44,098 bases of DNA from the NCBI GenBank assembly GCA_016935975.1, contig JAFGPX010000254.1, positions 1-44,098 on the forward strand, in the 5' to 3' direction. Under the pieces are notes generated by a model that worked only from the letters and a program-made list of their open reading frames with translations, was not told the origin of the DNA and ran no database searches. Below are positions 4,734 through 44,028 of this stretch, in pieces (positions within the stretch are counted from its first letter, which is position 1; each line of letters opens with the position of its first letter). This stretch comes from Deltaproteobacteria bacterium (GTDB lineage Bacteria; Myxococcota_A; Polyangia; Fen-1088). The position numbers and the translations under genes were made by a program.

Positions 4734-7241
<2,508 letters not shown>

Positions 7242-7933: not shown

Positions 7934-7948
7934 GCGCCACGGAGCTTG

Positions 7949-8002: not shown

Positions 8003-8126
8003 CGGCTGCGGGCGTATTGCGCTGGCGCAAAGTTGCGTAAAGGCGATGGCGCGGGCCGGCGCCGAAGGGCAAAGTGGCGTGCCCAGGGGAAATCGGGCAT
8101 AGGATCGGGTCAAGGCGGGAACGGCC

Positions 8127-8522: not shown

Positions 8523-8531
8523 TCTCCGCGC

Positions 8532-9968
<1,437 letters not shown>

Positions 9969-22350: not shown

Positions 22351-23205
22351 TTGAAGATCCACAAGGCAGTCATTCCCATGGCCGGTCCCGTACACCGGGA
22401 TCTGCCGCTTCAGCACATCACGACCGGCGAGGGGGTCACACGACACGTCGCCGCCCTGCAGATCGACGAGCTGCTCGGGGCCGGCATTCGCAGCGTCGCG
22501 CTGGTCATGGCTCCCGGAACCGAGCCCTTCTTCGAGGTGCTGCGGGCTCAGTTCGGAGACGCGCTGGCGCGCATCGAGCAGCCGCGGCCCGAGGGGTTCG
22601 GAGATGCCATCCTGTGCGCCGAGTCTTGGGTGGCGGCCGAGCCGTTCATCTTGCAGGTCTGCGATCACGTCTTCGTGAGCCAGACCGCCGACTCCTGCAC
22701 GAGGCAGCTTGTCACGATCGCGGCCCAGGAAGAGTGCTCGGTTTCCGCGGTGCGCGCCACGCCCGAAAGCCAGCTCCCCTACTTCGGCGTCGTGGGCGGC
22801 CTGCGTGTCGGCAACACCACGGATCTCTACACGGTCTCGACCGTCATCGAGAAGCCGACCCCGACGGTCGCCGAAGAGCTGTGCATGGTCCCGGGCCTGC
22901 GGCAGGGCACCTACCTCGCGCTCTTCGGAACGCACGTGCTCACGCCGCGCATCTTCGCCCTCCTGCGGGAGCGGAAGCAGATGCTTGCGGGCCGAGACCG
23001 CCTGGGCCTGACCGAGGGCCTGGCCATCCTCGCGCAGCGGGAGAAGTACCTGGCGCGCGAAGTAAGCGGCCTGCGCTTGGACCTCGAAGGCCCCTTCGGG
23101 CTCTTGCGTGCTCAGGTCGCGTTGGCCTTGCACGGACCCAGGCGAGAGGAAGTCCTCGAAATCCTGCTTGAGGAAGTCGCGCACGCGAGCGGCTGCCGGG
23201 GTTGA
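22351..23205 (+). CDS. GalU-like nucleotidyltransferase with altered signature motif
   Basis: This 284-residue protein begins with the GalU strand KAVIPMAG, but the nucleotide-binding signature (normally GLGTRFLP.TK) is replaced by GPVHRDLPLQHI. Later family blocks remain: AGIRSVALVMAPG, EGFGDAILCAESWV, FILQVCDHVFV, VSTVIEKPTP and GTYLALFGTHVLTP. True GalU makes UDP-glucose from UTP and glucose 1-phosphate. Without the GxGTR loop and its lysine, this copy may be inactive, regulatory or changed in substrate. It starts at a TTG and ends 7 bases before the large kinase/pyrophosphorylase gene, so the two probably act together. Confidence 0.78.
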   Translation: MKIHKAVIPMAGPVHRDLPLQHITTGEGVTRHVAALQIDELLGAGIRSVALVMAPGTEPFFEVLRAQFGDALARIEQPRPEGFGDAILCAESWVAAEPFILQVCDHVFVSQTADSCTRQLVTIAAQEECSVSAVRATPESQLPYFGVVGGLRVGNTTDLYTVSTVIEKPTPTVAEELCMVPGLRQGTYLALFGTHVLTPRIFALLRERKQMLAGRDRLGLTEGLAILAQREKYLAREVSGLRLDLEGPFGLLRAQVALALHGPRREEVLEILLEEVAHASGCRG

Positions 23206-23212
23206 CGCCACG

Positions 23213-26533
<3,321 letters not shown>

Positions 26534-26651
26534 GCCGGAGCACTTCTCTACCCGGCGCTTCGGAGGGGCCTGTGTCTGGGCTGCCTGTGGTAATCTTTCA
26601 ACCCTGTGCCGCGAGTCCGGTCGCCGTGGGAGGGCGGCCTCGCGGGCAAGG

Positions 26652-28070: not shown

Positions 28071-28090
28071 TTGCGTTCGGCGAATGCCCA

Positions 28091-28726
28091 CTACGGTTTC
28101 GCGGCGGGCGCATCCCGAGCGGGATCGTCGGCCGGGATGCACCCGATGGCGAGCTGGCGGACCGTCTCGCCATGTAGCTTGCGGAACTCGTCGCGGCCGA
28201 AGGACATGGTGACATCGTCCTGCTCGTCGACGTACGAGCGGGCGGCGGGGCTGTCGTCGGCCCGGTAGCCGAGCTTCTCGAAGAGTCGCAGGGAGCCGCG
28301 ATTGGCGGGGATGATGGTCACGTAGATGCGTTCGAGGCCGAGGGCCTCGAACGCGAGGGCGTGCAGCATGAGCGCGAAGCGCGTGCCGTAACCGCGGCCC
28401 TGGACCTTGCGCTCGCCGATCATGATGGCGAACTCCGCCGTGCGCGTGGCTGCGTCGATGTGGCGCAGATCCGCGTCGCCCAGCAGATGCCCGTCCGCGT
28501 AGAGCAGGAAGCTGCGCCTGTCTTCCTGCGCGCCGTCGAACTGCTCGCGGACGTCACCCAGGTTCATCCTCTCCTGGCTAGCCATCATCGCCCGGTTGTG
28601 CTCCTCGTTGTACCAGGCCAGCAAGTCGGAAGCGGCGGCCTCGACCTCGGGTCCGGCGGGCTCGCGTGCGACAAGCCGGCCGTCTCCGCCTTGCCAGGAT
28701 ACCGACCAGCGCTCGGGTTGCGACAT
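28091..28726 (-). CDS. GNAT-family acetyltransferase (RimJ/RimL-like)
   Basis: This 211-residue enzyme would transfer acetyl from acetyl-CoA to an amine, possibly a protein N-terminus. The family core is visible: FLLYADGHLLGDADLRHID, EFAIMIGERKVQGRGYGTRF with the CoA-binding QGRGYG, then LGLERIYVTIIPANRGSLRL and FEKLGYR. The usual length is about 180; the last 30 residues are a low-complexity tail. It stands alone, convergent with the LamG gene. Substrate unknown. Confidence 0.88.
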   Translation of the reverse strand: MSQPERWSVSWQGGDGRLVAREPAGPEVEAAASDLLAWYNEEHNRAMMASQERMNLGDVREQFDGAQEDRRSFLLYADGHLLGDADLRHIDAATRTAEFAIMIGERKVQGRGYGTRFALMLHALAFEALGLERIYVTIIPANRGSLRLFEKLGYRADDSPAARSYVDEQDDVTMSFGRDEFRKLHGETVRQLAIGCIPADDPARDAPAAKP

Positions 28727-29053
28727 GGCAGGACGCTACCGCGCGCTGGCGTGGCCACGCAACCGGCCGCGTGGCCCCCGGCGGGTAGCATGGCCCTGGT
28801 CACCGGCATCCCGGACAGTAGCTGCGGGAAGAGAGCCGGTCGTCTCGCCGCGAGCCCCAGCGCGGACAGGAGCAGCGTCTTCCGGCAGCTCGACGGTACC
28901 GACGAGATCTACTACCGCGCCTACGGGAAGTACCAGGCAGGCGTGACCTGGCACCACACCAACACCGTTGGGGCAACAAAGCGCTGGACCGGGCCGGTCG
29001 CGCGGGTCAGATTTGCCCACGGGTGCGCGTCCCATACGAGGAAGGAGGCAGCC
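28727..29053. other. Intergenic region, no gene recognised
   Basis: These 327 bases lie between the divergent GNAT and ARPP-1 genes. The frame of ARPP-1 stays open through it (including DGTDEIYYRAYGKY), but I see no family match and a strong ribosome site marks the later start. It probably holds promoters for both sides. Confidence 0.5.
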
Positions 29054-31750: not shown

Positions 31751-32755
31751 CTACGGCAACGGCGCCACTTGCCAGGCGCCGTTCTCCAGGTTCGCTCCTG
31801 GGATTTGGTTCCAGGGCAACAGACGCTCCCACACGGCGCCTTTTTCGTACGGCGCCTTGGACCATGCGACCTGGAGATCGGGCCGGACGCCGTCTGCGAA
31901 GGCGAGCGTCGACGGCCGCCGAGGTATCCGCATCTTCATGGGATCCCACGTGCCGACCACGCACCAGTACTTGTCGGAACCGAGGATCTGCAACAGGAGA
32001 TCCCTGTGCAGACGCCTGAGCGCCCTGGCCCAGAGCCAGTTCTCCACCCCGGCTGGCGAGAAGCTCACCAGCAGCTTGGGGCCAGTCAGCCTATTCCCGT
32101 CTCGACCGATCGGCTGGGGAGCGAATAGCAGGAAGGCCACGTTCTTCCCGTCTTGAGCCGTTGCCGCCCTGTGACTTATCTGGAAATTGCCTTCGAGCAA
32201 CCCCAGGCTGTGGCGCAGTTCTTGGATGGGCCATGCCAAGACGATCTGTCCTCGGGTGCACCACTTGAGGAAGCACTGGCGAACGGTCGAAAAGACAATG
32301 CCTTCTCGGTGCGTGTAGGTGCGGTGGATCCGTTTGCGTGCCTCCCTTTCATCGTCCAAGGGGACACGCGTCGTGATCACGATGAGATCCGACTCGGACA
32401 ACTTGAGGTCTTCCGTCGTGGCGTCGTCGTCAACTGCAGCGGCCTCGACCGTGACGGCCTGAGCAGCGGCGTCGGTGGGGCGAGGTATGTCCTTGGGTAG
32501 ATTCAGGATGGTTTCGCCCAGGGTCCATCTCGATTCGATGAACGTTTCATAGAGCTCCACGAAAGCGCTGGCGTCGCGAATGAGGTGCAGTTGCCGATCC
32601 CAGAGAATCTCCTCCTCGCTTGGCGAGGGCCCGGCCACGTATCGTATGTAGTGGGGGGTCACTGGGTAGGTGAACTGGAAGACCCTCGGTCGTGCTTGCT
32701 CCCCAGTCGCTCCTGCTTGCTCCGGTATGGCTAGTGGTCGCTGTTGCTTCGGCAT
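31751..32755 (-). CDS. Hypothetical protein divergent from the ubiquitin-like operon
   Basis: This 334-residue protein begins MPKQQRPLAIPEQ; the start is set by the ggagggagcg site just upstream. It has no signal peptide or TM helix. The middle is acidic (VEAAAVDDDATTEDLKLSE), followed by an Arg/Lys-rich stretch (DDEREARKRIHRTY), and the end is rich in Trp (WCVVGTWDPMK; WSKAPYEKGAVWERLLPW). I do not recognise it. Its codon use looks less GC-biased than the operon beside it. It is divergent from the sigma-like gene and shares a 286-base control region with it, so it could be a regulator or cargo of the same system. Confidence 0.6.
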   Translation of the reverse strand: MPKQQRPLAIPEQAGATGEQARPRVFQFTYPVTPHYIRYVAGPSPSEEEILWDRQLHLIRDASAFVELYETFIESRWTLGETILNLPKDIPRPTDAAAQAVTVEAAAVDDDATTEDLKLSESDLIVITTRVPLDDEREARKRIHRTYTHREGIVFSTVRQCFLKWCTRGQIVLAWPIQELRHSLGLLEGNFQISHRAATAQDGKNVAFLLFAPQPIGRDGNRLTGPKLLVSFSPAGVENWLWARALRRLHRDLLLQILGSDKYWCVVGTWDPMKMRIPRRPSTLAFADGVRPDLQVAWSKAPYEKGAVWERLLPWNQIPGANLENGAWQVAPLP

Positions 32756-33041
32756 CGCTCCCTCCGAACGCCAGGCCTTCAGTATAGCGAGCACCGCATG
32801 CCGGGCCAGAGCATTTGTCCTCCCTGCGTGCGGACGGCGAAGGCTTTTGGTCCAAAAGCGCGTTTTCCTCCAAAGACGATTCTTGGTGCAATTCTCAGAT
32901 CTAGGAGACGAGATCGCTCCGGAGGCTGTCCCGCAGATCTTTGGACGAAAAGCCCGATTGCTCCCAACGCTCCGGATTTGGCGAGAAGTTACTTGTGGGC
33001 GAATCGCCAGAGCGTCTCGCGCATGTGCTGTCGTTAGGGGT
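32756..33041. promoter_or_regulatory. Divergent control region upstream of the ubiquitin-like operon
   Basis: These 286 bases lie between two divergent starts and are more AT-rich than their surroundings. They contain a 17-base perfect palindrome (32843-32859) and several related aaaag/cttttg boxes. Promoters for both sides must lie here; I cannot fix the -35/-10 elements. Confidence 0.55.
32843..32859. promoter_or_regulatory. Perfect 17-base palindrome, candidate operator
   Basis: GCTTTTGG-T-CCAAAAGC is an 8-bp perfect inverted repeat around one central base, in the divergent intergenic region about 90 bases from one start and 180 from the other. Its size and symmetry suit a dimeric repressor or activator. 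No DNA-binding regulator is obvious nearby apart from the sigma-like protein. Confidence 0.5.
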
Positions 33042-33704
33042 ATGAAACCCTCTGGCTCCGCCCCATCGACAGTTGCCGCCAAGATCGACGACAAGGCCAT
33101 CGCGAATTTGATCTTCGCGGCGGGGATCCCTCGGAAACACGTCGGCAGCGTCTATCTCAAGCTCGCTGGCCACGCTCTGTCGCTCGACGAGCGCGAGGCG
33201 AAGTCGTACGTCAGTCGAACCCACCGGCACGCGCTCATCGACGAAAAGAGGCGGCACAGGCGCCATCCCGTGTTGCCTCTGGACCCGCTGTCGGCCGTGT
33301 GGGACGCGCTCGCACACGACCAGATCCGTCCCGACGATGTCGAGCGCAAGAAGACGCTGCAGGCGCTCATGCAAACTGGAATCGCCCTGCTTTCGCCGCA
33401 CCAGCGCAGCTTGGTGCGGGCATGGATGGACCGCTCCCACGAAGAGAATGTGACCGAGATCCACGAGGCGCTGCCGCAGCCCTGTGGGCTTGGCGCCTAC
33501 CACTGCAAGAACATGGCCTTCGCCAACCTGACCCGCATCGTCTCCGGCCTGGCGGTGGCTACCGGCAACTCGGATTTGCGCCCCGCTGGCGCGGCGGCGT
33601 GTGCGGGGCGTCGGCCGGGACTTCGCTCGCGGCAAAAAAACGCGAGGGCGATCTTCAAAAACCCCACCGGCGCGCGTCTTGAAAGAGGAGAAGGCGAAGC
33701 ATGA
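33042..33704 (+). CDS. ECF-like sigma factor heading the operon
   Basis: This 220-residue protein resembles small sigma-70 (ECF) factors. Residues about 30-67 read like region 2: VYLKLAGHALSLDEREAKSY, then SRTHRHALIDEKRRHRR, as in the usual wL..i..N..iD..RR..R. Residues about 105-165 read like region 4: TGIALLSPHQRSLVRAWM, then an HTH-like VTEIHEALPQPCGLGAYHCK. It lacks an obvious anti-sigma partner. Its TGA overlaps the next ATG (33701-33704), so it is coupled to the operon and may direct its own transcription. The last 40 residues are basic and poorly protein-like, and contain an A AAA AAC run (33634-33641). Confidence 0.65.
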   Translation: MKPSGSAPSTVAAKIDDKAIANLIFAAGIPRKHVGSVYLKLAGHALSLDEREAKSYVSRTHRHALIDEKRRHRRHPVLPLDPLSAVWDALAHDQIRPDDVERKKTLQALMQTGIALLSPHQRSLVRAWMDRSHEENVTEIHEALPQPCGLGAYHCKNMAFANLTRIVSGLAVATGNSDLRPAGAAACAGRRPGLRSRQKNARAIFKNPTGARLERGEGEA

Positions 33705-34990
33705 CGGATCCCTTCGACCTCGGCGATCGCATCGGCGAATTCCTGCCCAGGGCCATCGGCTTGGCCCCGAGGTCGGGCGGAGGCGACCTCGCGGCAAGCG
33801 GGTCGTCGCTTGGCGACGCCTACGCCGTCGTCTTGTCCCCGTCGTTTCACGAGTCTTTCTACGCGCGCTTCGAGCATTTCATCGAAGCACTGGATTTGGA
33901 AGGAATGCCCTTGTTCTCGCCGGCGGTGGCGGCGAACGATCTGTCGCTGGAGCACTACCGCCAGCACGTCGTCCTGCGGGCGTGCGCCATCGCGGCCGGC
34001 GACGCGATGGCCGGCTACGGCCTGGTGCGTTGGATGCAGGTCGTCCGTGAAATCGCTGGCCGCCTTCGTGGGGATCCGACGCCTTTGTGCGCCCAAGCGT
34101 TGCCCGCGCGTCAGCACCTGGGCGATTTGCGCCGCCGCGTGCTGTGCTGCGCCGACTTCACGCCCGCCTTCGTGGCGCGGCTTCGGCGCTATCGCCCGCT
34201 CATCCTTATCGGGCACCAGCTTCTGGTCGAGATGCGCCCGCCGTGGGACTTCGGCCGGGTGGCCAGCAACAACGACATCGCCGATGTCGCTCTGTTGCCG
34301 GAGCCGTGGTTCGACCGGATCGTCGCGACGATCCGCTCCGAGTTCGCGGACGAGCGCGACGACGTCGCCAGAGCGGAGGACGAGAAGTTCTGGGCCGAAC
34401 TCGCCGCTGGTCGAGCACCGATCCGAGGGGCGGGAAGTCTTCAGGGGTTCGCCGTTTCGGCGTCACCGCCCGACAGGCTTAAGGTGTCGCTGGAAACCGG
34501 TGGCCCGTTCTTCATGGAGGTCGCACCAGGTCGGGCCGTGCTGTGGCCCGCCGCGGTCGTCTCGGTCGAGGCCGAGTCCTCGATGCTGCTCGGGCCGAGC
34601 ACCAACCTGACCGTCAGGTTGAGCCCCTGTCCTGGGACGCACGGGCGTGCGTCGGGGTCGCGGTCGAACGAAGCACCCAGCCTGGCGCGACTCGCGAGCG
34701 ATCTCTCGCTACACCCCTTCGCAAGTCGCGAGATGACTTTCTGCGTTGGCAGCACGATCCAGCGCAACCGGCAGCTCGCGCAACACACGTCGATGGCGGA
34801 CGTGGTTCTCGAGTGCCATCTACGGGGTGCCGTGCGGGTGTTCCGGTACGGCTGGCGCAGGTCCAATCAGAACCGCGTCTACCACGACCTTCGGGGCGAC
34901 CCGTCTGTGGTCGGCCTTCACGTAGTCCCGCTGGCCGAGGCTTTGCGGCACGTCGCCGCTCACCCGGAAATCGAGATGGTGCGTTGGTAG
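33701..34990 (+). CDS. Unknown 429-residue protein of the ubiquitin-like operon
   Basis: No family is recognised. The protein is soluble with no signal. The N-terminal 230 residues look helical (FARFEHFIEAL-like and LRACAIAAGDAMAGYGLVRW) with a Cys pair in RRVLCCADFT. The C-terminal 180 residues look beta-rich (LKVSLETGGPFFMEVAPGRA; DVVLECHLRGAVRVFRYGWR). It is coupled to the sigma gene by an ATGA overlap and is followed by a 49-base gap before the first ubiquitin-like candidate. Position suggests an operon-specific adaptor, substrate or ligase, but nothing in the sequence decides this. Confidence 0.7.
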   Translation: MTDPFDLGDRIGEFLPRAIGLAPRSGGGDLAASGSSLGDAYAVVLSPSFHESFYARFEHFIEALDLEGMPLFSPAVAANDLSLEHYRQHVVLRACAIAAGDAMAGYGLVRWMQVVREIAGRLRGDPTPLCAQALPARQHLGDLRRRVLCCADFTPAFVARLRRYRPLILIGHQLLVEMRPPWDFGRVASNNDIADVALLPEPWFDRIVATIRSEFADERDDVARAEDEKFWAELAAGRAPIRGAGSLQGFAVSASPPDRLKVSLETGGPFFMEVAPGRAVLWPAAVVSVEAESSMLLGPSTNLTVRLSPCPGTHGRASGSRSNEAPSLARLASDLSLHPFASREMTFCVGSTIQRNRQLAQHTSMADVVLECHLRGAVRVFRYGWRRSNQNRVYHDLRGDPSVVGLHVVPLAEALRHVAAHPEIEMVRW

Positions 34991-35039
34991 CGGCGAGAAG
35001 ACACGCCTTCGAACAACCAAGAAAACGGGAGTTGCGCCA

Positions 35040-35351
35040 ATGAACGAAACGAAGGACATCGAAGTCAGGCTGTCGCGGGGTGGAAACCCGCTCGTCGGAC
35101 AGACTCGTCATTTCTCGATCGACGAGGCTGGTGTTCCCCTGCGGGACCTCCTCGGTCCGAACCTGCGCGGTTCTGGAGCGGTCGACGTCTTCTTCAGGCA
35201 CGACAGCCGCGAAGTCCTGATTCCCCCGGAAGACCTCGACGTGCTTTCGCTGCACGAGGCGATGCGGCGCGTGTCGGGCGGCGGCAGCACGCAAGCGGGA
35301 GTCTTCACGATCGACGCGACGGCCGCACACGAGGGCGCGCTTCATGCCTGA
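35040..35351 (+). CDS. Candidate ubiquitin-like protein 1 (GGG plus C-terminal tail)
   Basis: This 103-residue protein has a predicted beta-grasp order: strand IEVRLSRGG, strand QTRHFSIDEAG, helix VPLRDLLGPNL, strands AVDVFFRHDSREVLIP and LDVLSLHEAMRRVSGGG. The last block ends in GGG, where ubiquitin ends in GG, followed by 19 further residues starting STQAG. I infer a proprotein cut by the adjacent JAMM peptidase, whose gene overlaps this one by 8 bases. There is no sequence identity strong enough to prove the fold. An alternative is an accessory beta-grasp or adaptor protein that is not conjugated. Confidence 0.55.
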   Translation: MNETKDIEVRLSRGGNPLVGQTRHFSIDEAGVPLRDLLGPNLRGSGAVDVFFRHDSREVLIPPEDLDVLSLHEAMRRVSGGGSTQAGVFTIDATAAHEGALHA

Positions 35352-36345
35352 CTTGGGCGAAGCCAACGGAACAGGCAACGGGCCCGCGCTGTTCGTCTCG
35401 GACAGCTTCATGCTGGCGGCGCAGGCGGGCTGCGATGCCGCGGATCGCTTGCGCGGCGGCGTGGAGGTCGCGTGGTCGGCCTACGGCCAGTGGACGATCG
35501 CCAAGGGTGCTCGGTTCGGCGCGATCTACCTTTCGCACCCCTTCCTCCTGAAAGCCGAGTGCGGGCTCGCGCGTTTTCGCGTGAAGCCCATGGATCTCTC
35601 CGCACTGGGGCGGCGCGTTTCCGCGTCGTACCCGCACCTGACGGTGCTCGGTCAGATGCACAGGCACCCGGGACGATGCAAACCGACACCTTCGCCTACC
35701 GACGACGAGGACCGCGAAAGAATGGCGAACCTTCTCCGGGATTGCGCCGAGCGCGAGGTCGTCGAGTGCTGGGAAGTGCCGCCGCATCTGCCGCGCGTCG
35801 GAAACAACGGGGACGCCAGGCAAAGGGTCGAGTACGCGATCGATCCGCGCCTGGTGATCAGCATGGGCCCGCGCTCCGGAAGCCCGCCATCGAGCGCCTT
35901 GCCGGCGCCGGCGCGAGGCATCGCGCAGGCTCCGACCGTGACGTGCACGAGACGCGTGGGCTTGGCCTATCAGGTGTTCCTCATCTGCAACGCGCAGGCC
36001 GAGCGCGAAGCGATCCAAGCGCAGGTGATGGAGTTCCGGCGTCTGCCATTCGGTGAGGACGTGGCGACGCTCTTCGACGACTGGAAGGTGGAGATTCTGC
36101 CCGATACGGAGGTCGCGGCTCGTCTGGCGATGGACGTGGATCTGGTGCGATGCGATGTCGACCGGGACCGGATTGCCGCCTCGGTCGAGGAGTGCGTGCA
36201 TCCCTTCGGCGGCGGCACCACGTGCACCTGCCCGAATTCATACTGGTCGTCGGACGGCGGAGCCGGGGGCGTGATCAAGTGCCGCGATCCGAACGCCACC
36301 GGCGCCGCCGACGGCATTTGTGACGGGGTGCGACCGAATGGATGA
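35344..36345 (+). CDS. JAMM/JAB metalloprotease 1 (deubiquitinase-like)
   Basis: This 333-residue protein has a JAMM zinc motif: His106 and His108 in GQMHRHPGR, then Ser117 and Asp120 in PSPTDDED. The spacing from the second His to the Ser is one longer than the common form. The paired acidic residue is probably Glu41 in GGVEVAWSAYG. Such peptidases cut after Gly-Gly, trimming ubiquitin-like tails or removing the modifier. After the JAB domain come about 200 residues ending in a Cys-containing segment (TTCTCPNSYW) with no known match. The gene overlaps the upstream ubiquitin-like gene and the downstream E1-like gene by 8 bases each. Confidence 0.78.
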   Translation: MPDLGEANGTGNGPALFVSDSFMLAAQAGCDAADRLRGGVEVAWSAYGQWTIAKGARFGAIYLSHPFLLKAECGLARFRVKPMDLSALGRRVSASYPHLTVLGQMHRHPGRCKPTPSPTDDEDRERMANLLRDCAEREVVECWEVPPHLPRVGNNGDARQRVEYAIDPRLVISMGPRSGSPPSSALPAPARGIAQAPTVTCTRRVGLAYQVFLICNAQAEREAIQAQVMEFRRLPFGEDVATLFDDWKVEILPDTEVAARLAMDVDLVRCDVDRDRIAASVEECVHPFGGGTTCTCPNSYWSSDGGAGGVIKCRDPNATGAADGICDGVRPNG

Positions 36346-37666
36346 GATCTACGGTCGCATGCTGTGCCAGGCCGGTTGGCGACTCGCGCCGATCCGGCAG
36401 ACGATGCTCGTGATCGCGGCGGCGGGTCCGGTGGCGGAGCAGCTCTCGCTCGCCGCGAGCGCGATCGGCTTCGAGCACCAGCTCGTCCTGGCGCAGGACA
36501 TGGCCGCAGGCCTCGCTCTGGCGGATGCGTCGATGCGCCACAACCCACAGGCATACGTCGACGTGGAGCTCGGGAGTCTTCACCGGGGCATCGCCGCCAT
36601 GCCGTCGATCTTCGTCGTGGATCTCGGAGATCCGGCCATGCGGGGCATCTCGATCGAAAGCGAGCATCCCATCCTCGGCTTCGCCCAAAAGGACGACCGG
36701 ATCGATTTTGGCACCGATCTCGACCGCGTGCGCCCCGGCTGCGTGGGCCGCCCGGTGCGGCCGTGCGCCGAGATCTCCGTGCTCGTGGGCGAGTTGCTCG
36801 CCGCGCTCTGCAGCATCTTGAACGCGTATCGCGCCGGTGAGAACGAGCCGGGCCTCGCGCCGCCTCCGAGGAGCGCGCGCCTGCCCACGCCCCCGCCGCC
36901 CGGTCCCGGCGGCGAGATCAAACCGCGCCGCATTTACGTTGGCGGCTTCGGAGGAGCGATCGCGCATCAGGTTCTGAACGCGATGGCAATGGATCCGATC
37001 CTGCAGGAGATCCTCTCGCACCCGGATTCGCTCATGGTCGGTGCCGACGACGACGTCGTCGAGGAAAGCAATCGCAGCCGGCAGGTTGGATACCTGCCCG
37101 ACGACGTCGGCCGCCCCAAGGCCGAAGCGACGCGCGACTGGCTCGGTCGCGGGACGCTCGCCCAGATTCACATCGTCGCTCTGGACGAGCCGATCGCGCT
37201 TCGGCATTTCACCGACTACGGGCCCTTCGACCTCGTCCTTTCCTCCGTCGATTCCTGGGACGCGCGGCGCACACTGGTCGAGCTCGCGCGCAAAAGCCGG
37301 GTGCCGACCCTGCTTTCCTCGGGCAGCAGCTTCTTCGGTGGCTTCGAACGCCTCGTGACCGAAGACAGCGCCTGCATGTCGCTTCACGGCGTCGAGCAGC
37401 TTGCCCACCGGCCGCGCGGTACGCGGCGCTCGTGCGCGGACGCACCTTTGCCATCGTCGCTCGTCCCGCAGGCGATCGTCGGCGGTCTCGCCGCCGCGGA
37501 CCTGCGCAACGCGTGGCTGGGCCGGCCCGTGGATGCACGCGGCGCCGAGGTTCACCTGCTGCACGCGAGCGCCGAGCCGGGGTTCGAGGGCCTGCGGCAT
37601 TCGCCGGGAAGGCTGGCCAATGCGACGTGCCCGTGCGTGGCCTCTGGCGCGGGAGGAGCGCGATGA
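36338..37666 (+). CDS. E1-like (ThiF/MoeB fold) adenylating enzyme 1
   Basis: This 442-residue protein has about 195 N-terminal residues of unknown fold, a proline-rich link (PTPPPPGPGG), then a ThiF/E1 domain. The nucleotide loop is YVGGFGGAIAHQVL (Gly202-Gly206). The second hallmark is EESNRSRQVGYLPDDVGRPK, matching the E1 block with N..RQ and GRPKA. DLVLSSVDSWDARRTLVEL follows, then SCADAPLPSSLVPQ, which holds the candidate catalytic Cys, and a closing CPC pair that may bind zinc. It would adenylate the Gly-Gly end of a ubiquitin-like protein and hold it as a thioester. ATG 36338 is chosen for its 8-base overlap with the JAMM gene; GTG 36320 is possible. Confidence 0.85.
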   Translation: MDEIYGRMLCQAGWRLAPIRQTMLVIAAAGPVAEQLSLAASAIGFEHQLVLAQDMAAGLALADASMRHNPQAYVDVELGSLHRGIAAMPSIFVVDLGDPAMRGISIESEHPILGFAQKDDRIDFGTDLDRVRPGCVGRPVRPCAEISVLVGELLAALCSILNAYRAGENEPGLAPPPRSARLPTPPPPGPGGEIKPRRIYVGGFGGAIAHQVLNAMAMDPILQEILSHPDSLMVGADDDVVEESNRSRQVGYLPDDVGRPKAEATRDWLGRGTLAQIHIVALDEPIALRHFTDYGPFDLVLSSVDSWDARRTLVELARKSRVPTLLSSGSSFFGGFERLVTEDSACMSLHGVEQLAHRPRGTRRSCADAPLPSSLVPQAIVGGLAAADLRNAWLGRPVDARGAEVHLLHASAEPGFEGLRHSPGRLANATCPCVASGAGGAR

Positions 37667-38142
37667 GAGTCCCCGATGGCGCGGCGGTCGGCCGGCTGGC
37701 GAGAGGCGACGGCGCGTGCGCGCACGCTCTCGTGCAGGGCAAGGCCGTCGCGATCGCCGACGGGGTCTCGGTCATCCCCGGCTGGAGCGAGCACGGCGAG
37801 GTCGAGATCGTGTGCAAGGTCGCGCCGGGCGCGCGCGTTTCCGTCGACGGCCGCCGGAGGACCGGCATGTTCGTGATTGGTCCGGGACAGGCCTTCTCGT
37901 TGCGCAACGGCGGCGCGGCCGAGCAGACGTGGACGTTGGTTTGCGCCGAACGAGTGCCGGTCGCCGCCGAACCGACCGGCTCCTGTGCCTTCTGCCACTG
38001 CAGGCTCGGGAGCGCGGCCGTGATCGTCGACGCGACCGGGCTGCCGCCGAGCTGGCGAGCGCTGGTTTGCGGCCCCCTGTGCCGGGAGTGCGCCGCCGGC
38101 ATCGCCGAGGCGCGCCGGCCAGGCAACGGGAGGGCACGATGA
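37663..38142 (+). CDS. Cys-rich zinc-binding protein of the ubiquitin-like operon
   Basis: This 159-residue protein has a beta-rich N-terminal part (GEVEIVCKVAPGARVSVDGR; GMFVIGPGQAFSLRNG) and a C-terminal zinc site: Cys108, Cys111, Cys113 (with His112), then Cys136, Cys140 and Cys143 in LVCGPLCREC. The two Cys clusters about 23 residues apart suit a treble-clef or zinc ribbon, the fold class that includes RING fingers. Lying between two E1 genes with 4-base ATGA overlaps on both sides, it could be a ligase-like (E3) or adaptor subunit. That is inference from position. Confidence 0.65.
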   Translation: MRVPDGAAVGRLARGDGACAHALVQGKAVAIADGVSVIPGWSEHGEVEIVCKVAPGARVSVDGRRRTGMFVIGPGQAFSLRNGGAAEQTWTLVCAERVPVAAEPTGSCAFCHCRLGSAAVIVDATGLPPSWRALVCGPLCRECAAGIAEARRPGNGRAR

Positions 38143-39257
38143 GCGACAACGTCACTCGCATCGCCGTCGTGGGGCTCGGCAACGTCGGGTACTGGACGAC
38201 GACCGCGCTGGGCCTGGCCATGCTCGGCGGTCTCGGCGGCGATTGCGACATCGCGCTCGTGGATTTCGATACCGTCGACGAGCGCGCGGTTCGCAAGGGC
38301 TACCCGCCGTGGCTTCTCGGGTGCCAGAAGGCGAAGGCGATGGTCGCGGCGATCGACGCGATGTACGGCGCGAGCGTCTCCGCCGCGATGCACCCGGTGC
38401 TCGCGGCCGCCCAGAGCGCGCCGGGCCTGCTCGCCGACCGCGACGTCTTCATCTGCGTCGATTCGCTCGGCGACGCACAGTTCGTATCGAGCCGCGCCCG
38501 ATCCCGGTGGCAGTGCCGGGTAAGCACCGGCGCGGGAGGATTGGCCACCCACTGCGTCGAGGTCTTCCCTCCCGACACCGCCGCGCTCGGCGATGTCTAC
38601 GACGACGCCGCCTGGTCGCAGGCGGGGCGTCGGCAGAGTTGTACGACGGGCCAGCCGGCCCGCCCGCTCGACGGGGCGGCGTATCCCATCGGGATCGTGG
38701 CCGGTGCGCTCGCCGTGCAGGCCTATTTGAACCGCGCCATGGACAGCGCGCCGTATCGACTGCAATGGACCGGAACGCAGCCGCTGCGGAGCGATCTTTG
38801 GGGCGCGGCAGGCAAGGCTGCGCCCTGCCGCGATCTCGGCCTCGACAACCGCGCGACCATCGACCGCGTCTGGCAGGACGTCGCGCGCGCCCTCGAGGTC
38901 GATCCGGACGACCTGATGCTCACCTGGGAGGCCCCGATCGTCCGGCGTCACTGCGCCTGTCGGAGCCCCTACCTCGGCTTCGAACGGTACCCGGTGACCG
39001 GCCGTTGCCCGACGTGCAACGGCAGGTCGATTCTGGTCTCGGCCAGCCGCGAGCTGCTGCCCGCGGAGGCTCGGGCGATCAGGTGCCGCACGCTGCGCTC
39101 TCTGCACGCGCCGGCGGGCATCGGCCTCGGCGCCGTCACGCGCGACGGCCGCAGCCGCCGCTATCGCCTGACGTACCGGCCCGAAGACGTGCCGCCTCTG
39201 ACGGGCAACGCCGCCTGCTACCAGAGCGCGCAATCGACGGAGGGACTGCACGCATGA
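38139..39257 (+). CDS. E1-like (ThiF/MoeB fold) adenylating enzyme 2
   Basis: This 372-residue protein begins with the adenylation fold: IAVVGLGNVGYWTTTALG, acidic strand IALVDFDTVDERAVRKGY, and GCQKAKAMVAAIDAMYG in place of the usual G.PKA block. DVFICVDSLGDAQFV follows, then RRQSCTTGQPARPL, which contains the candidate thioester Cys. A zinc site is likely at HCAC and RCPTC (about 270-295). It differs clearly from the first E1: the N..RQ motif is not conserved and there is a different C-terminal extension of about 75 residues. Its ATGA overlap with the E2-like gene suggests these two form one E1-E2 pair. Confidence 0.82.
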   Translation: MSDNVTRIAVVGLGNVGYWTTTALGLAMLGGLGGDCDIALVDFDTVDERAVRKGYPPWLLGCQKAKAMVAAIDAMYGASVSAAMHPVLAAAQSAPGLLADRDVFICVDSLGDAQFVSSRARSRWQCRVSTGAGGLATHCVEVFPPDTAALGDVYDDAAWSQAGRRQSCTTGQPARPLDGAAYPIGIVAGALAVQAYLNRAMDSAPYRLQWTGTQPLRSDLWGAAGKAAPCRDLGLDNRATIDRVWQDVARALEVDPDDLMLTWEAPIVRRHCACRSPYLGFERYPVTGRCPTCNGRSILVSASRELLPAEARAIRCRTLRSLHAPAGIGLGAVTRDGRSRRYRLTYRPEDVPPLTGNAACYQSAQSTEGLHA

Positions 39258-40027
39258 GCGACGACACGGGCTTTTCGCGCAATCTGTCCGAACCCGACCT
39301 GACCGGCGCCGTCGAGGAGCGCTGCCTGGCCCGTCTGGATCACGATCTGCGTGACCTTTCGGATTTCGCCACGGCCGTCGGGCACGAGCGCTTCCAGATG
39401 GGCGTGGCCGCGTTCGGCGGTCGGATGCTGGGGATTGGCATGCGCTTCGGCAGCGTGCGCACCGGTCTGTGCCGGCTCGACGACCATGCCGTCGTGGCGC
39501 AGGCCATCGAGGTGGTCGCGGACATCTCGCCGGGCGTTGGCGATGCTCCTTACCCCTTGGGCGAGCCGACGGTGCGGCTGCGCTTCCCGAACCTGCCAAC
39601 GGGGCTCGTGCCCTTCCTGTCGAACCTGCACTTTATCCCGCCGGCCACGGACGGATCCGGCTTTGCCGGCGCACGCCGCGCCGACCCGTTCGGCGGGCGC
39701 GCGGCGGGCTCCCATCGGAGCCCGCTCTCGGCGATCCTCGACGCGGCCTCGCCAGGCCACGTCGGCCTCGGCATCCCGTGCCTCTACAGAAAGTGGCACC
39801 CACAGCGAGACCTCGTCTGGGTGGCGCGCCAGCTCCACTCGCTGCTCGTCGTCGAGCCTGCCACGATGGCGAGCCCGAACGACTGTCTCAATCCGGACGC
39901 CGCTAGGTACTGGCTGGCTCAGACGGAGCACGAAGTGCCGCTCGAGCCGCCCCTGGGCCCGGCCGCGGCGCCGCGCAATGCGTCCGTCGACGCGGGCTTC
40001 GTCCTCACCAGAAACCCCGATCCGTGA
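39254..40027 (+). CDS. E2-like ubiquitin-conjugating enzyme
   Basis: This 257-residue protein has the E2 (UBC) pattern in its second half: APYPLGEPTVRLRFPNLP like the Y P...P.v.F strands, GHVGLGIPCLYRKWHPQRDL with candidate catalytic Cys176 (ubiquitin E2s have G.iCl....W.P), and HSLLVVEPATMASPNDCLNP followed by DAARYW, like the Pn..(l)N.eAA..y helix. The HPN tripeptide before the Cys is absent, as in many bacterial E2s. It would take the modifier from an E1 and pass it to a lysine. It overlaps the second E1 gene by 4 bases and is followed by a 70-base gap. Confidence 0.8.
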   Translation: MSDDTGFSRNLSEPDLTGAVEERCLARLDHDLRDLSDFATAVGHERFQMGVAAFGGRMLGIGMRFGSVRTGLCRLDDHAVVAQAIEVVADISPGVGDAPYPLGEPTVRLRFPNLPTGLVPFLSNLHFIPPATDGSGFAGARRADPFGGRAAGSHRSPLSAILDAASPGHVGLGIPCLYRKWHPQRDLVWVARQLHSLLVVEPATMASPNDCLNPDAARYWLAQTEHEVPLEPPLGPAAAPRNASVDAGFVLTRNPDP

Positions 40028-40097
40028 AAAGGCGTGCCTAGCCGTGGAAATCCGGCCCGCGCCGGCGTCTGAGAGAAAGGAACAAGAAGGAACGACG

Positions 40098-40754
40098 ATG
40101 CAAACCACCCTGGAACAGGCCTTGGCGGAGACGGGGTTGGCCCCCGCGCTCCTGTCCGTCGAGCAGCGCCCAGCGGGCTCGGCCGTGGTCTGGCTGTCGT
40201 CGGAGCTCGGCGATCCAGTGGAGGCCATGGCGCGCAACCTCGCGTGCGGATCGACGCCGTTCGTCGTCCACCCCGACACGGGCAACCTGGTTCGCCGCCT
40301 AACGGTCGATGCGGTGGAGAGGTGGAACACCGGTCTTCTCGCGTCCCGCCTGCGGCGAGAGCGCGGCGGCGCGGCGACGCCGGCGCTCGTCGGTTCGCTC
40401 GGTCGCTCCGGCCGCCTGGTGGTGGACACGAGCAACGTCCCGGCGCTGCTGACTGCGGCGCCTTTTCCGCGCGATTTTCGCCCCATGGCAGAGGCGGTCG
40501 CTGCGGAACGCGTGCGCCGGATCGCGTGGGTCCTGCTCTCGGTGTCGGGCGGCAGCGACGACAGGTTTCACTTCATGCGCGAGCCGGGCGACGTCTTTTC
40601 TATCGAAAGGGCCGTTGCCGTTGGGCACAGCGCATCGTCCGAGAAGCAGATGCGCGCGAAAGCCAGAGCGCTCATCGCCGAGGCCGACGAAGACCGCCAC
40701 CTCATCGAGCTTCTTCAGCACGACCGCTATCCGGCGGCCGTTTGGGATGCATGA
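40098..40754 (+). CDS. Unknown 218-residue protein of the ubiquitin-like operon
   Basis: No family is recognised. It is soluble, with an N-terminal alpha/beta part (PAGSAVVWLSSELGDPVEAM; GSTPFVVHPDTGNLVRRL) and a helical C-terminus (EKQMRAKARALIAEADEDRH, LIELLQHDRYPAAVW). It is preceded by a 70-base gap and a purine-rich ribosome site. Because it comes just before the second ubiquitin-like gene, it might be a substrate adaptor, but no motif supports this directly. Confidence 0.7.
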   Translation: MQTTLEQALAETGLAPALLSVEQRPAGSAVVWLSSELGDPVEAMARNLACGSTPFVVHPDTGNLVRRLTVDAVERWNTGLLASRLRRERGGAATPALVGSLGRSGRLVVDTSNVPALLTAAPFPRDFRPMAEAVAAERVRRIAWVLLSVSGGSDDRFHFMREPGDVFSIERAVAVGHSASSEKQMRAKARALIAEADEDRHLIELLQHDRYPAAVWDA

Positions 40755-40763
40755 CACCTCACG

Positions 40764-40768
40764 AGGAG
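40764..40768 (+). promoter_or_regulatory. Ribosome binding site choosing the start of ubiquitin-like protein 2
   Basis: An aggag core lies 6 bases before ATG 40775. It favours that start over the in-frame ATG at 40751, which overlaps the previous stop and would add eight residues (MTPHEEKT). Confidence 0.65.
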
Positions 40769-40774
40769 AAAACC

Positions 40775-41089
40775 ATGTTTGCCAATGCGTGCGAGTGCGA
40801 AATCCAGATCGAACACAACGGACAACTGCGCAAGGAGAAGGTCAGGGCCTCCAGCAACACCGTCGACGCCGCGAAGCTTCGCCAGCAGATGCTGCACTTC
40901 TTCAAGGTCGGAAGCCCCATCGACGACCTCGAGGTCGAGAGCGACGAGGACGAGAGCTGGACGCTTCTCGGGTTCGACGGCAACGGCGGCAGCGTCGAGC
41001 TCGACGGCGCCAAGGTCATCGAATTGAAGGACTACAGCACGTTCCGCCTGACACCGCGCACGGCCGGCGGTTCGCCGGAGGTCCGGTAG
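40775..41089 (+). CDS. Candidate ubiquitin-like protein 2 (ends GG plus SPEVR)
   Basis: This 104-residue protein fits the ubiquitin fold order: strand CEIQIEHNG, strand KEKVRASSNT, helix DAAKLRQQMLHFFKV, strand ESWTLLGFDGNG, then VELDGAKVIELKDYSTFRLT followed by PRTAGG. That last stretch parallels the end of ubiquitin (LEDG, DY, T..L..RLRGG). After GG only SPEVR follows, like the short tails removed from eukaryotic ubiquitin and SUMO precursors. The JAMM 2 gene starts on the very next base after its stop, a natural processing partner. It is the best modifier candidate in the operon, but the fold is still inferred from pattern. Confidence 0.65.
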   Translation: MFANACECEIQIEHNGQLRKEKVRASSNTVDAAKLRQQMLHFFKVGSPIDDLEVESDEDESWTLLGFDGNGGSVELDGAKVIELKDYSTFRLTPRTAGGSPEVR

Positions 41090-42322
41090 ATGGCGCAGCT
41101 CCGCGATCTCGACGGAAAGCCCTGCGCGCTCGAGGTTATCTTCTACGAGAGGACGGTCTCGGGTCAGGCGGGCCGCGATGCCGAGCGAGCGACCGCCGAC
41201 CTGAGCCGGCCGGTGGCCCGGATCGTCGTCAAGCCCGAGGTGCTCTGCCGCGACCACCTCCTCGACCTGGGCTACGCGGTGGCGCGCGATGGCCCGGCTC
41301 TCGAAGGAGCCGAACTGCCCGTCGGCGTCGAGTACTTCGACGATCACCCTCTTGTCCTGATGCTCCTTGCCAAGAAGTCGTGCGCGCCGACTTGGGACAA
41401 GGCCGATGTTGCGGCGGGCGCGCCGATGCATATCGAAACCTTGGACCGCGGGCCGCTCGCGAAGTTCATGCGCAGAAAGGGGCTCGACCCCAAGAGCCTG
41501 GTCTTCAGGGTGCAGCCGGTGGCAGTGCCGGGCGCACTCGCGCCGCGGCGGGGCGACGGGTTCGAGATCAGGGGCGCGAACGAGGAGCCAGGCGAATGGG
41601 TCACGGTGCGCGTGCCGAGCTACGCCTCGTGGGCCGACGTCGCCGACCGGCCGCACGGCGAGCTTCTGCCGTCGGAGGCTGGCGAACACGGGCCGCGCGT
41701 GTGTGTGCCGCGCGAGCTTCTCGAGAAGCTCGTCCGCGACGAGGCGGCGTATGCGGACCGCGCCGGTGACGCCTGGGCGGAACGGGCGTGGTTCCTGGCC
41801 GGCAACCTCGGCCGGCAGGGCGGGCGGATCAGCGCGCGCGTGTGCGCGATCTGCCCGGCCGTGGACGTACACGCGACCGTTGCAGAGGTTGTCTTCGGCC
41901 CGCAAACCTGGGTGCGCGCCAGGCAGGAGATGGACGCCCGCAGCCTGGATCTTCTCGGTTGGGTTCACACGCACTCTCTGGCAAGGCTCCGCAAGCTGGC
42001 TCGGCACCAAACCGCCGCGGCGGCCGCGACTGCCGCGATCGCGACGCCGGCGGCGGCTGCCAGCGACGGGACGGCGCCTTCCGATCTTCATGCGGCCTTC
42101 GCCGACCTCGACAGCGGCCTCTTCCTCTCGCAGACCGACATCGACTCGGCCCGGCGTCTCGGCTTTCGTTCGCCCACGTCGCTCACCGCGGTCCTCGACG
42201 CCGACGCGTGCGCGACGGCCGCCGAGTCCGGAGTCGACGATCTCGGCGGCATCGTCGGTTTCTGGGGGTGGGCGTACGGCTTCCTTGCCCGCAGGTCCGT
42301 TCGATTGACCACAGGAGCATAG
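41090..42322 (+). CDS. JAMM/JAB metalloprotease 2 with Ala-rich insertion in the motif
   Basis: This 410-residue protein has an N-terminal region of about 220 residues (including YFDDHPLVLMLLAKKSCAPT) and a C-terminal JAB domain: the acidic residue in AERAWFLAGNLGR, zinc ligands His293 and His295 in GWVHTHSLA, and Ser347 with Asp350 in FLSQTDID. Between the second His and the Ser lie 51 residues, mostly an Ala/Thr-rich stretch (about 306-328), where other JAMM enzymes have about 7. All core residues are kept, so it may be active with a long flexible loop over the site. It starts directly after ubiquitin-like gene 2 and ends 2 bases before the ATPase. Confidence 0.78.
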   Translation: MAQLRDLDGKPCALEVIFYERTVSGQAGRDAERATADLSRPVARIVVKPEVLCRDHLLDLGYAVARDGPALEGAELPVGVEYFDDHPLVLMLLAKKSCAPTWDKADVAAGAPMHIETLDRGPLAKFMRRKGLDPKSLVFRVQPVAVPGALAPRRGDGFEIRGANEEPGEWVTVRVPSYASWADVADRPHGELLPSEAGEHGPRVCVPRELLEKLVRDEAAYADRAGDAWAERAWFLAGNLGRQGGRISARVCAICPAVDVHATVAEVVFGPQTWVRARQEMDARSLDLLGWVHTHSLARLRKLARHQTAAAAATAAIATPAAAASDGTAPSDLHAAFADLDSGLFLSQTDIDSARRLGFRSPTSLTAVLDADACATAAESGVDDLGGIVGFWGWAYGFLARRSVRLTTGA

Positions 42323-42324
42323 CC

Positions 42325-44028
42325 ATGAGCGACTTTTTCGAGATGTCCGCGGTGATGACGGCGATCGCCGAGACTCACGGCAAGAACAGCCGCCAGATCC
42401 TCGGCTCCAAGCAGCTCGACGAGGCGGGACGCCGGCTGCTCAGCCAGAATCAGGAACTCTTCGCCAAGATCTACAACTTCACACGCGAAGTCGTTGGGAG
42501 GAAAGCCGGGCTCGCGCGTCGAGCACAGCTCGTCGGCGTCCACCCGCGACGACGCCTCGGCGACAAGGCCATCACTTCGGCCGTCCTGCACAACGGGGAA
42601 ATGGTCGAGCTGGTCGTGCCGGAGGCCGACCTCGCCCGAAGGATACGGCCCGGCATGATCGGCATCGTCACGGTCGACCACACCGAGCTTCTCGACGTGT
42701 GCGACGAGCCACCGTGGGAGTGCGCCGTCGGGATCGTCAGGCACATCAACCGCGCCAACGGCCACACCACGGTCGACGTGGGAACCGAGCACGGTGCGAA
42801 CGACGTGACGATGCACGTCGCCTGGAGCTTGCCGCCGGACTCTCTGGAGGTCGGCCAGTCGGTCTACTACCTCAACCGGTTCGTGTACGGCGTGCGCGAC
42901 GGCGGGCGGCTTTCGTTTCTCGATTCCCACAAGCGATCCTGCGCCTACAACGTCGGGGCCGACGAGGTCTTCGGGCGCCATCAGCGGGGACTCATCCGGA
43001 AGATCTGCGCGACCGTGGATCGCGCGCGCCATCCCGAGCGTTATCCCAAGCGGAACCGCGACGGCGAGAGCCGCCTGCTGGTCTACGGGCCTCCCGGGTT
43101 CGGCAAGAGCGAGTCGATCCGGGCCGCGGCGGGCGAGGCGTTTCGGGCCGCGCCGAATCTCGAGATGTTCGCGCTCGACGCCAACGCCTTCCGTTCCAAG
43201 TTCGTGGGAGAGACCAGCGAGCGCATCACGGGGACCTTCGACGCGGTGAACGCGCTGGCGAGAGACGGCAAGATCGTGCTGCTCGTGATCGAAGAAGCCA
43301 CATCGCTGGTGATGGATCGCTCCGCCACCGCCGGGTACCTGGACTCGGGCGTGTCGCTCCAGGCCACCGAAACGCTCATGGCCTCGCTCGACTCGGCGGC
43401 CGGCGGCCTGCACGAGAACGTGATCCTGATCCTCACGTCCAACCGGGCCGATTTGATGGACATCGGAGGCCTGGCCCGTTTCGCGAAGATCCCGGTGAAG
43501 ACCTTCGGCGCGGACGAGTTCGAAGCCGTGCTGGCGAACTGCGCCCGCAGGAACCGCGACTCCTACGACGGATCGTGGCAAGATGGCTTCCACGACGCGA
43601 CCCGGGCGGCCATGGACACGCAGATCGGGACGATCCTCGTCGGCAAGGAGCAGAAGAAGGTGAAGGTGCGCCACGTGCTGAGCGGGCGCATGGCGCAATG
43701 GGTGGATCGCGAGGCCGGCAACTGCGTCGACATGGAGATCTTCGCCGGCAATGGCAACGGCAAGTGCCGTCTGCGGAAGATCACGCCGGCGCTCCTGCAC
43801 ACGATGATCGTCGCGCAGGCCATTGCCGAGTACACGCCGTGGAGCCTCGCCGACTGCCGGGACAGATTCCGCGGAACCGATCTGTGCCGCAACGAAAAAG
43901 AGGGAGCCATCGGCGATCCTCGCGCCTTCGAGATCGAGGAGGTGCAGCTTCCTCCGGACTACGACGCGCTGTGGGCGCTGGAGGAAATGGTCGATCCGCC
44001 CGGGCTCGGCGGCCGCGCACGGGCCTAG
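42325..44028 (+). CDS. ARC/Mpa-like AAA ATPase (proteasomal-type unfoldase)
   Basis: This 567-residue ATPase ends the operon. The order matches ARC/Mpa: a helical N-terminal part, an OB-like region (about 130-200: AVGIVRHINRANGHTTVDVG, LEVGQSVYYLNRFVYGV), a linker with ARHPERYPKR, then the AAA core. Walker A is YGPPGFGKSES (Lys261), the pore loop is RSKFVGETSERI with the aromatic-hydrophobic-Gly step, and Walker B is IVLLVIEEATS with EE at 323-324 in place of DE. ILTSNRADLMDIGGLARFAK is the sensor region, shortened where a typical ATPase has LRPGR. It probably unfolds modified proteins for a protease encoded elsewhere. No Pup or proteasome gene is in the window. Confidence 0.82.
   Translation: MSDFFEMSAVMTAIAETHGKNSRQILGSKQLDEAGRRLLSQNQELFAKIYNFTREVVGRKAGLARRAQLVGVHPRRRLGDKAITSAVLHNGEMVELVVPEADLARRIRPGMIGIVTVDHTELLDVCDEPPWECAVGIVRHINRANGHTTVDVGTEHGANDVTMHVAWSLPPDSLEVGQSVYYLNRFVYGVRDGGRLSFLDSHKRSCAYNVGADEVFGRHQRGLIRKICATVDRARHPERYPKRNRDGESRLLVYGPPGFGKSESIRAAAGEAFRAAPNLEMFALDANAFRSKFVGETSERITGTFDAVNALARDGKIVLLVIEEATSLVMDRSATAGYLDSGVSLQATETLMASLDSAAGGLHENVILILTSNRADLMDIGGLARFAKIPVKTFGADEFEAVLANCARRNRDSYDGSWQDGFHDATRAAMDTQIGTILVGKEQKKVKVRHVLSGRMAQWVDREAGNCVDMEIFAGNGNGKCRLRKITPALLHTMIVAQAIAEYTPWSLADCRDRFRGTDLCRNEKEGAIGDPRAFEIEEVQLPPDYDALWALEEMVDPPGLGGRARA

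Follow-up and report, generated by a model that had tools for sequence, protein, structure and literature searches.

The type 6a to 6e operons described by Iyer in 2006 share with the locus reported here adjoining genes for an E1, a JAB peptidase, an E2-like protein and a ubiquitin-like protein (Ubl), a patchy distribution, and a JAB gene beside or fused to the E1 gene (in the sections of PMC1779556 compared). They are the nearest kind, with the same proposed chemistry, to a cassette of 13 genes (g00 to g12, Table 1) in the window, that is, the whole stretch of 44,098 nucleotides analysed (contig JAFGPX010000254.1, assembly GCA_016935975.1, from a Deltaproteobacteria bacterium placed in the Myxococcota). 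Type 6 features are seen in two ThiF-fold E1s (g05 and g07), a JAMM gene (g04) overlapping the E1 gene g05, and a predicted beta-grasp protein (g10) with a conserved Gly-Gly, whereas the doubled E1 and JAMM, the additional AAA ATPase (g12) and the number of 13 genes are different; the word AAA is not used in the main text of PMC1779556. With a probability of about one half, the cassette is read as a reversible ubiquitin-like tagging system with its own predicted unfoldase, in which JAMM peptidases would mature and remove the tag.

The portions compared of six papers (PMC1779556, PMC11354881, PMC2588565, PMC6043591, PMC8665760 and PMC13373217) served as the comparison literature. The combination of tagging, unfolding and untagging was not found described in bacteria there or among the entries that literature searches for it listed, and an overlap with Bub operon types (Gong 2025 and Ye 2026, as cited in PMC13373217) is possible. 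Bil operons likewise have separate Ubl, E2, JAMM and E1 genes, and their E1, BilD, has 450 and 451 aa as compared with 442 aa in g05; hhalign pairs residues 190-315 of g05 with 199-316 of BilD (14.2%, the best of 10 families against Bil and not strong). On the other hand, BilA has two tandem ubiquitin-like domains according to the section of PMC11354881 compared, g10 has one, and no tested cassette family gave a profile match to BilA (best 3.1%). Two Bil-type operons (BilA-D) were also observed in other Myxococcota (L087 and L088, in G282 and G387), named by neighbourhood and a PADLOC BilD match.

PRTRC loci share JAB, E2-like and Ubl genes as classes and an E1 profile that matches g05 and g07, but they differ in gene order and in the presence of the AAA gene in the cassette. 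PRTRC A, B, C, E and F were matched by none of 11 cassette families (g04 not included; best 4.3%), leaving the E1s as the only match. The Caldiarchaeum ubiquitin operon (CsUb, CsRpn11), in the section of PMC6043591 compared, shares JAMM maturation after a Gly-Gly, as proposed here, and a second modifier/JAMM pair, here a candidate one; in contrast, no RING family was matched in the cassette, which has its AAA gene inside and is bacterial and very divergent. The earlier note on this DNA had set the cassette apart from known systems. This holds in so far as a defining feature of PRTRC, of Bil and of pupylation was looked for and in each case not found. As regards type II CBASS, Pfam recognised no nucleotidyltransferase family among the 13 proteins, several of which match nothing.

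Conjugation and deconjugation enzymes

Both g05 and g07 pass the Pfam cut-off for ThiF (5.7e-15 and 5.3e-9), in agreement with the two E1s claimed earlier, and no third ThiF site was found in their own genome. The ThiF fold of g05 is preceded by an N-terminal domain of about 190 aa, and at least nine of ten relatives keep its GxGG motif, NRSRQ sequence and Cys366 (10-member alignment). Compared with solved structures, the g05 profile matched 39 distinct sequences at E 0.01, with SUMO E1 subunit 2 as the best (1.2e-10), followed by ThiF, UBA7, the NEDD8 E1 and others; the g07 profile gave no match at E 1. In g07, GxGNxG and Cys168 are kept in five of five members, and the C-terminal segment contains cysteine. 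Read from the motifs, Cys366 and Cys168 are candidates for catalytic-type cysteines. In addition, g07 matches NCBIfam PRTRC_ThiF (0.0017), and hhalign to the PRTRC ThiF profile gave 96.8% for g05 and 90.7% for g07. In shuffle tests, which set a protein's profile score against 2000 shuffles and count those reaching it, a BilD profile singled out neither protein (39 for g07, 56 for g05), and the PADLOC BilD model matched g05 at 0.0038 over residues 236-314 only. By these sequence features, g05 and g07 are firmly assigned as two different E1s, each with a ThiF fold and a catalytic-type cysteine.

The structure prediction proposed in the earlier note was run on g10 and returned a beta-grasp fold in one domain, with a model of medium confidence. 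Near its C-terminus g10 carries Gly98-Gly99 followed by five residues, and the Gly-Gly is present in all four members; the top Foldseek matches, staphylococcal superantigen-like and Eap beta-grasp domains, are read as similarity of fold only. Less firmly than for the E1s, the model suggests that g10 is a ubiquitin-like modifier. The other proposed modifier, g03, has an invariant tail HEGAxHA in a four-member alignment and matched no family in the Pfam, NCBIfam and PADLOC scans. A crude propensity plot fitted g03 poorly to the beta-grasp order; the same plot did badly on g10 and was dropped. The former suggestion of two modifiers is thus backed for g10 by a predicted fold and a conserved Gly-Gly but is unconfirmed for g03. 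As hhalign matched neither g03 with g10, g04 with g11, nor g05 with g07, a recent duplication of one set is unsupported.

JAMM peptidases are recognised by a motif known from the literature. In g04, the corresponding E41, H106-R-H108-P and S117-x-x-D120 are invariant in four of four members, and the strict pattern H.HPx6PSxxD occurs a single time, in g04, among 88,192 six-frame residues. In g11, E231, H293-T-H295 and S347-x-x-D350 are equally invariant (4/4), with an insert of about 50 residues inside the motif. Prok-JAB was matched below its curated cut-off by both: g04 at E 0.074, with two of four members matching (best 0.068) and two unrelated Pfam families also matched, in two members and one member, and g11 at E 0.058, where it is the sole Pfam family and is matched by all four members (best 0.011). 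A home-made PRTRC-A/BilC profile did not separate from shuffles (58 for g11, 129 for g04), and the g11 profile found no JAMM among solved structures. As to position, g04 overlaps both of its neighbours, the candidate modifier g03 and the E1 g05, while g11 starts directly after the modifier g10. Of the two JAMM peptidases claimed before, both therefore have full invariant motifs but miss the Prok-JAB cut-off; from the complete motif, and with less strength than for the E1s, g04 and g11 are considered probable JAMM-type peptidases.

The candidate E2 is g08, in which Cys176 and the W181-H182-P183 behind it are invariant across all nine members (one a fragment); a downstream His replacing the classical one is a known bacterial E2 pattern, as stated in the part of PMC1779556 compared. 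With four human E2s, hhalign gave g08 a probability of 1.6%, the highest of eight cassette families tested and below PRTRC-B (26.8%) and BilB (10.8%), and paired Cys176 with the catalytic Cys of UBE2D2, with the following stretch in register. The score of g08 against a profile of these human E2s was reached by 1 of 2000 shuffles (650 shuffles got a score), and the scores of its homologues by none in two cases and by 3 to 22 in six others. Known bacterial E2 proteins lay at a similar level with the same profile, which gave 0 and 24 for BilB, 1, 5, 14, 143 and 186 for PRTRC-B (a sixth PRTRC-B having no reported value), and 186 to 510 for the other scored cassette proteins. No Pfam or NCBIfam family matched g08, profile searches against solved structures gave no E2, and hhalign found nothing between g08 and PRTRC-B or BilB. 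An AlphaFold2 model from nine sequences was unusable (predicted local distance difference test score 32), and Foldseek with that poor model gave no match at E 0.001; a Prok-E2_B search of 188 genomes gave no match anywhere, its positive controls being equally silent. The E2 proposed earlier is thus supported as UBC-like at the level of motifs but has neither a family match nor a usable structure model. Overall, g08 is likely an E2, UBC-like around its invariant Cys.

An E1 and a beta-grasp protein might also make a thiocarboxylate, as in a sulfur-carrier or cofactor system in which the JAMM processes the carrier and no protein is tagged. That no further ThiF protein was found in the genome would fit such a role. 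However, Pfam recognised no biosynthetic enzyme or rhodanese among the 13 proteins, several of which match nothing, and sulfur transfer has no need of an unfoldase, an E2-like protein or a pair of E1s, so that this explanation is regarded as very improbable.

The AAA ATPase and the proposed cycle

The last gene, g12, is firmly predicted to encode an AAA ATPase (AAA match 1.1e-14), with an N-terminal part of about 230 aa, Walker A at residues 255-261 and KFVGE at 292-296, which we take to be the pore-loop position. Among NCBIfam models, pup_AAA is the closest (1.6e-10, 40.3 bits compared with a cut-off of 504.75), ranking ahead of FtsH and CDC48, with the match limited to the AAA module (residues 236-380). 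The best PADLOC model is TRIP13 (9.5e-9), the PHROGs match is an unknown family (8.5e-13), and among solved structures a VCP-like ATPase comes first, with a proteasome-associated ATPase at 2.4e-6.

For comparison with ARC, the ATPase of the Pup-proteasome system, 29 loci of the phylum were reduced to 14 frames by taking + strand frames only, ARC being named by eye. With 13 ARC-type proteins, hhalign gave 98.5% over residues 161-397 of g12. All 13 ARC-type frames examined end in GQYL, GQYI or GQYV, whereas the GQYL end is absent in g12 and in five of five homologues (one short at the end). Outside the AAA module, g12 shows no clear match to ARC: a profile of the ARC post-AAA region is unsupported in g12 (reached by 639 of 2000 shuffles), and an OB1 profile, reached by 27 for g12 and by 3 to 210 for five homologues, makes an OB part only suggestive. 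A quick tree of the AAA module separated g12 from the 13 ARCs (support 0.938) and grouped it, on very long branches, with a single sequence judged FtsH-like by eye; no close relative was identified. The ARC-like unfoldase of the earlier note is therefore confirmed as an AAA protein with pup_AAA as its best NCBIfam model, but an identity with ARC is unproven in view of the module-limited match, the missing end and the tree; g12 seems to represent a separate line of AAA ATPases. As a separate observation, 13 loci among L049-L076 encode ARC/Mpa-type proteins in Myxococcota genomes, and Pup-type proteasome ATPases thus occur in the phylum.

The cassette's own genome (94% complete) has one proteasome-family match, a 182-aa frame that is HslV by its position between xerC-like and hslU-like frames (both by eye). 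No 20S proteasome was detected there, although an incomplete metagenome-assembled genome (MAG) can hide genes, and the Pup ligase PafA gave no match, while the control Corynebacterium glutamicum was matched. Each of the four other carriers of the cassette also has a single proteasome-family match; in three it lies in a frame of HslV size (184-217 aa), and in the fourth it is weak and sits in a longer frame. The detection of HslV alone, and of no Pup ligase, in the own genome weakens the earlier idea of degradation in parallel to pupylation.

Degradation might still be regulated in another way, with g12 unfolding tagged proteins and handing them to HslV, ClpP or another general protease. The Walker A and KFVGE of g12, its best NCBIfam model being a proteasome ATPase, and the HslV of the genome speak for this, but the GQYL end and a 20S proteasome were not found, HslV seems to have an hslU-like frame beside it, and no protease except the JAMMs was recognised in the cassette; we consider this quite unlikely. 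Since HslV alone was detected, without a 20S proteasome or Pup ligase, and g12 lacks the GQYL end that docks to the proteasome, tagged complexes would more likely be remodelled or extracted than degraded by a proteasome.

In the reversible tagging cycle preferred here, the JAMM g11 would clip the five residues behind the Gly-Gly of g10. The Gly end would then be adenylated by an E1, most probably g07 or g05, which would take up the tag on its Cys. Acting as the E2, for which the evidence is at motif level, g08 would attach the tag to target proteins. The tagged proteins might be pulled on and unfolded by g12, whose AAA fold is seen and whose substrate is presumed, and a JAMM would finally cut off the tag for reuse. 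The first half of the cassette (g03, the JAMM g04 and the E1 g05) is possibly a parallel second modifier line, the least certain part of the scheme. Both features have an archaeal precedent (in the section of PMC6043591 compared), where a JAMM matures the modifier directly behind Gly-Gly and a single archaeon has two distinct modifier/JAMM pairs. It is doubtful, though conceivable, that g03-g04-g05 and g07-g10-g11 are orthogonal Ubl-JAMM-E1 lines sharing one E2 and a dedicated AAA ring, in a full cycle of tagging, unfolding and untagging that needs no proteasome. Equally speculatively, such a two-modifier version might be an independent equivalent of the Cdc48 or 19S machinery.

The origin of the coupling between ubiquitin tagging and an unfolding motor is an open question. 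If the tagging reading is right, the cassette would be a small bacterial system that keeps the genes for tagging, unfolding and untagging together, and about ten proteins could suffice to reconstitute the coupling in vitro; it would also show that bacteria can use a ubiquitin-like tag for unfolding with no 20S proteasome involved. Moreover, the E1s, JAMMs and E2 candidate of the cassette are divergent, and most of them are missed or barely seen by standard family models.

Distribution, boundaries and a possible role in defence

A g05 profile search of 84,980 species genomes gave four related loci; it used two short peptide patterns as first filter and possibly excluded records very close to the window's genome, and could thus have missed others. 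Three (L003, L005, L006) are in Myxococcales MAGs ('fen') and one (L004) in a Proteobacteria MAG ('Chersky'). All 12 codirectional genes are present in the same order in L006; L004 runs from the end of g01 to g11 and L005 from part of g05 to g12, while L003 holds g01-g07, these three being cut by contig ends. The gene-order survey called for in the earlier note thus found the genes co-occurring as a block. Around g07 and g08, the junction is shorter in L006 (around 12749-12917) and g07 is about 50 codons short in L005 (around 2172-2181), which is either real or an assembly error.

Within the order, 5 of 18 genomes have a strong g05 match (E below 1e-190), namely all three of the window's genus, two of the seven of a second genus and none of the remaining eight; seven of the 18 have only weak ThiF-type matches and six none. 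Four of the five strong carriers are the same records as L003-L006, as seen from contig coordinates. A sample of 377 genomes of the phylum gave a full-length match to g12 in its own genome only and matches to the AAA part in 46 others; G002 and G011, both carriers of g12, are missing from these matches and so evidently stand outside the sample. Searches of 5.8 billion proteins, each scoring about 8,000 candidates, found nine relatives for g05, nine for g08 including itself, and five for g12. For one relative of each, P0005 (g05, 60% identity), P0015 (g08, 60%) and P0023 (g12, 74%), the longest contig has the same length of 15,178 bases, and a further, more distant copy of the cassette is thereby suggested. 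The cassette is very rare and is known from few uncultured Myxococcota.

Its edges were compared in the three genomes with upstream sequence, those of the window, L003 and L006. Homologues of the divergent gene g00 adjoin the cassette in L003 and L006 with 64-72% identity (longest tblastn rows), and the start of g00 is uncertain because the matching frame continues to about 32850-32930. Beyond g00, no tblastn match at 1e-5 was found among the three genomes, and behind g12 there was none at 1e-5 between 1.9 kb of L005 and 0.8 kb of L006. Thus, g00 belongs to the cassette, which ends sharply on both sides. The DNA at the end of the cassette-adjacent gene (up to 31688) has counterparts of 77-84% identity in G001 and G002 on contigs other than those of the cassette, so the cassette seems to lie in differing surroundings, a comparison that paralogues and MAG assembly could blur. 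A link to mobile elements was sought and rejected: g05 had no relative in phage records, g05 and g12 had none in viral contigs, and plasmids gave one distant PRTRC ThiF for g05 and, for g12, ten records of generic AAA covering 25-33% of its length.

The patchy carriage (5/18 of the order, 2/7 of one genus) and the differing surroundings are features that an anti-phage defence might also show, in which infection would be blocked by the tagging of phage or host proteins, with the AAA ring helping to dismantle phage complexes. Bil and type II CBASS, with the same chemistry, are defensive (in the section of PMC13373217 compared; see also PMC10097602 and PMC11153139), and TRIP13 as the best PADLOC model of the AAA protein points the same way. 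Against this, PADLOC on ten cassette proteins was strong only for the AAA models of g12, with E1 and JAB models at 0.0021 to 0.062; the searches of phage and viral sequences were negative as given above; a Pfam scan, to which PADLOC was not added, showed no obvious defence gene among nine upstream open reading frames (ORFs); and Bub operons, with the same chemistry, are without demonstrated protection in the part of PMC13373217 compared. A defensive function is judged possible but rather unlikely.

Gene layout and surroundings

Twelve codirectional genes occupy 33042-44028 on the + strand, and the divergent thirteenth lies on the - strand from 31751 to about 32755. With starts picked by spacing, the junctions of g01-g12 comprise overlaps of 4, 8, 8, 4, 4 and 4 bases and gaps of 49, 70, 20, 0 and 2. 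The description of 12 same-strand genes with short overlaps and gaps was borne out, all 12 ORFs being present, while the extent given before was incomplete, having missed the conserved g00. A codon test, meant to tell real genes from the long frames of a GC-rich genome, compared each gene with one orthologue (from L006 for ten genes, L004 for g07 and L005 for g08). Codon position 3 was the least conserved in 12 of 12 genes, and amino-acid identity to the single orthologue ranged from 0.62 (g01) up to 0.87 (g12). All 12 ORFs evolve as protein-coding genes.

Table 1. Genes of the cassette, with positions in the window
Gene	Positions	Strand	Length	Description
g00	31751..32755	-	334 aa if start = 32755	conserved divergent gene
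g01	33042..33704	+	220 aa	possibly divergent sigma-70-like regulator (weak)
g02	33701..34990	+	429 aa	no known family
g03	35040..35351	+	103 aa	candidate second modifier
g04	35344..36345	+	333 aa	probable JAMM-type metallopeptidase
g05	36338..37666	+	442 aa	E1 (ThiF fold)
g06	37663..38142	+	159 aa	CxxC...CxxC zinc-type C-terminus
g07	38139..39257	+	372 aa	second E1 (ThiF fold)
g08	39254..40027	+	257 aa	likely E2 (UBC-like)
g09	40098..40754	+	218 aa	no known family
g10	40775..41089	+	104 aa	putative ubiquitin-like modifier, predicted beta-grasp
g11	41090..42322	+	410 aa	probable JAMM-type metallopeptidase
g12	42325..44028	+	567 aa	AAA ATPase

Among the remaining genes, g00, g02 and g09 matched no Pfam family, and g02 and g09 no NCBIfam model either. 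In g06, C108, C111, C140 and C143 are invariant in five of five members, with no Pfam or NCBIfam family; it is comparable to the zinc-finger protein of polyUbl operons (in the section of PMC1779556 compared), but the spacing differs, and at a guess it might be an E3 or adaptor. A sigma-like factor belonging to the cassette, as proposed earlier, is unconfirmed: g01 matches TIGR02937 at E 0.022 with 14.4 bits, short of the cut-off of 42.9, in two of three members including that of the window, and it may be a sigma-like regulator.

Elsewhere in the window, the frame at 15-1646 (+) matches the protein-arginine deiminase (PAD) family (3.3e-29). A 1425-aa frame at 4734-9011 (-) is a carbohydrate phosphorylase in its C-terminal 700 residues, with no Pfam match at 0.01 in the N-terminal half, and 11478-13658 (+) encodes a type VI secretion spike protein of the VgrG type (Phage_GPD 1.1e-74, Gp5 domains). 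A 1141-aa frame at 23108-26533 (+) matches UTP-glucose-1-phosphate uridylyltransferase only near its end (3.1e-10). It is followed at 26469-28070 (+) by a LamG/concanavalin-like lectin protein (3.6e-27), and several contigs from genomes of the same genus match the DNA around 27100-28760.

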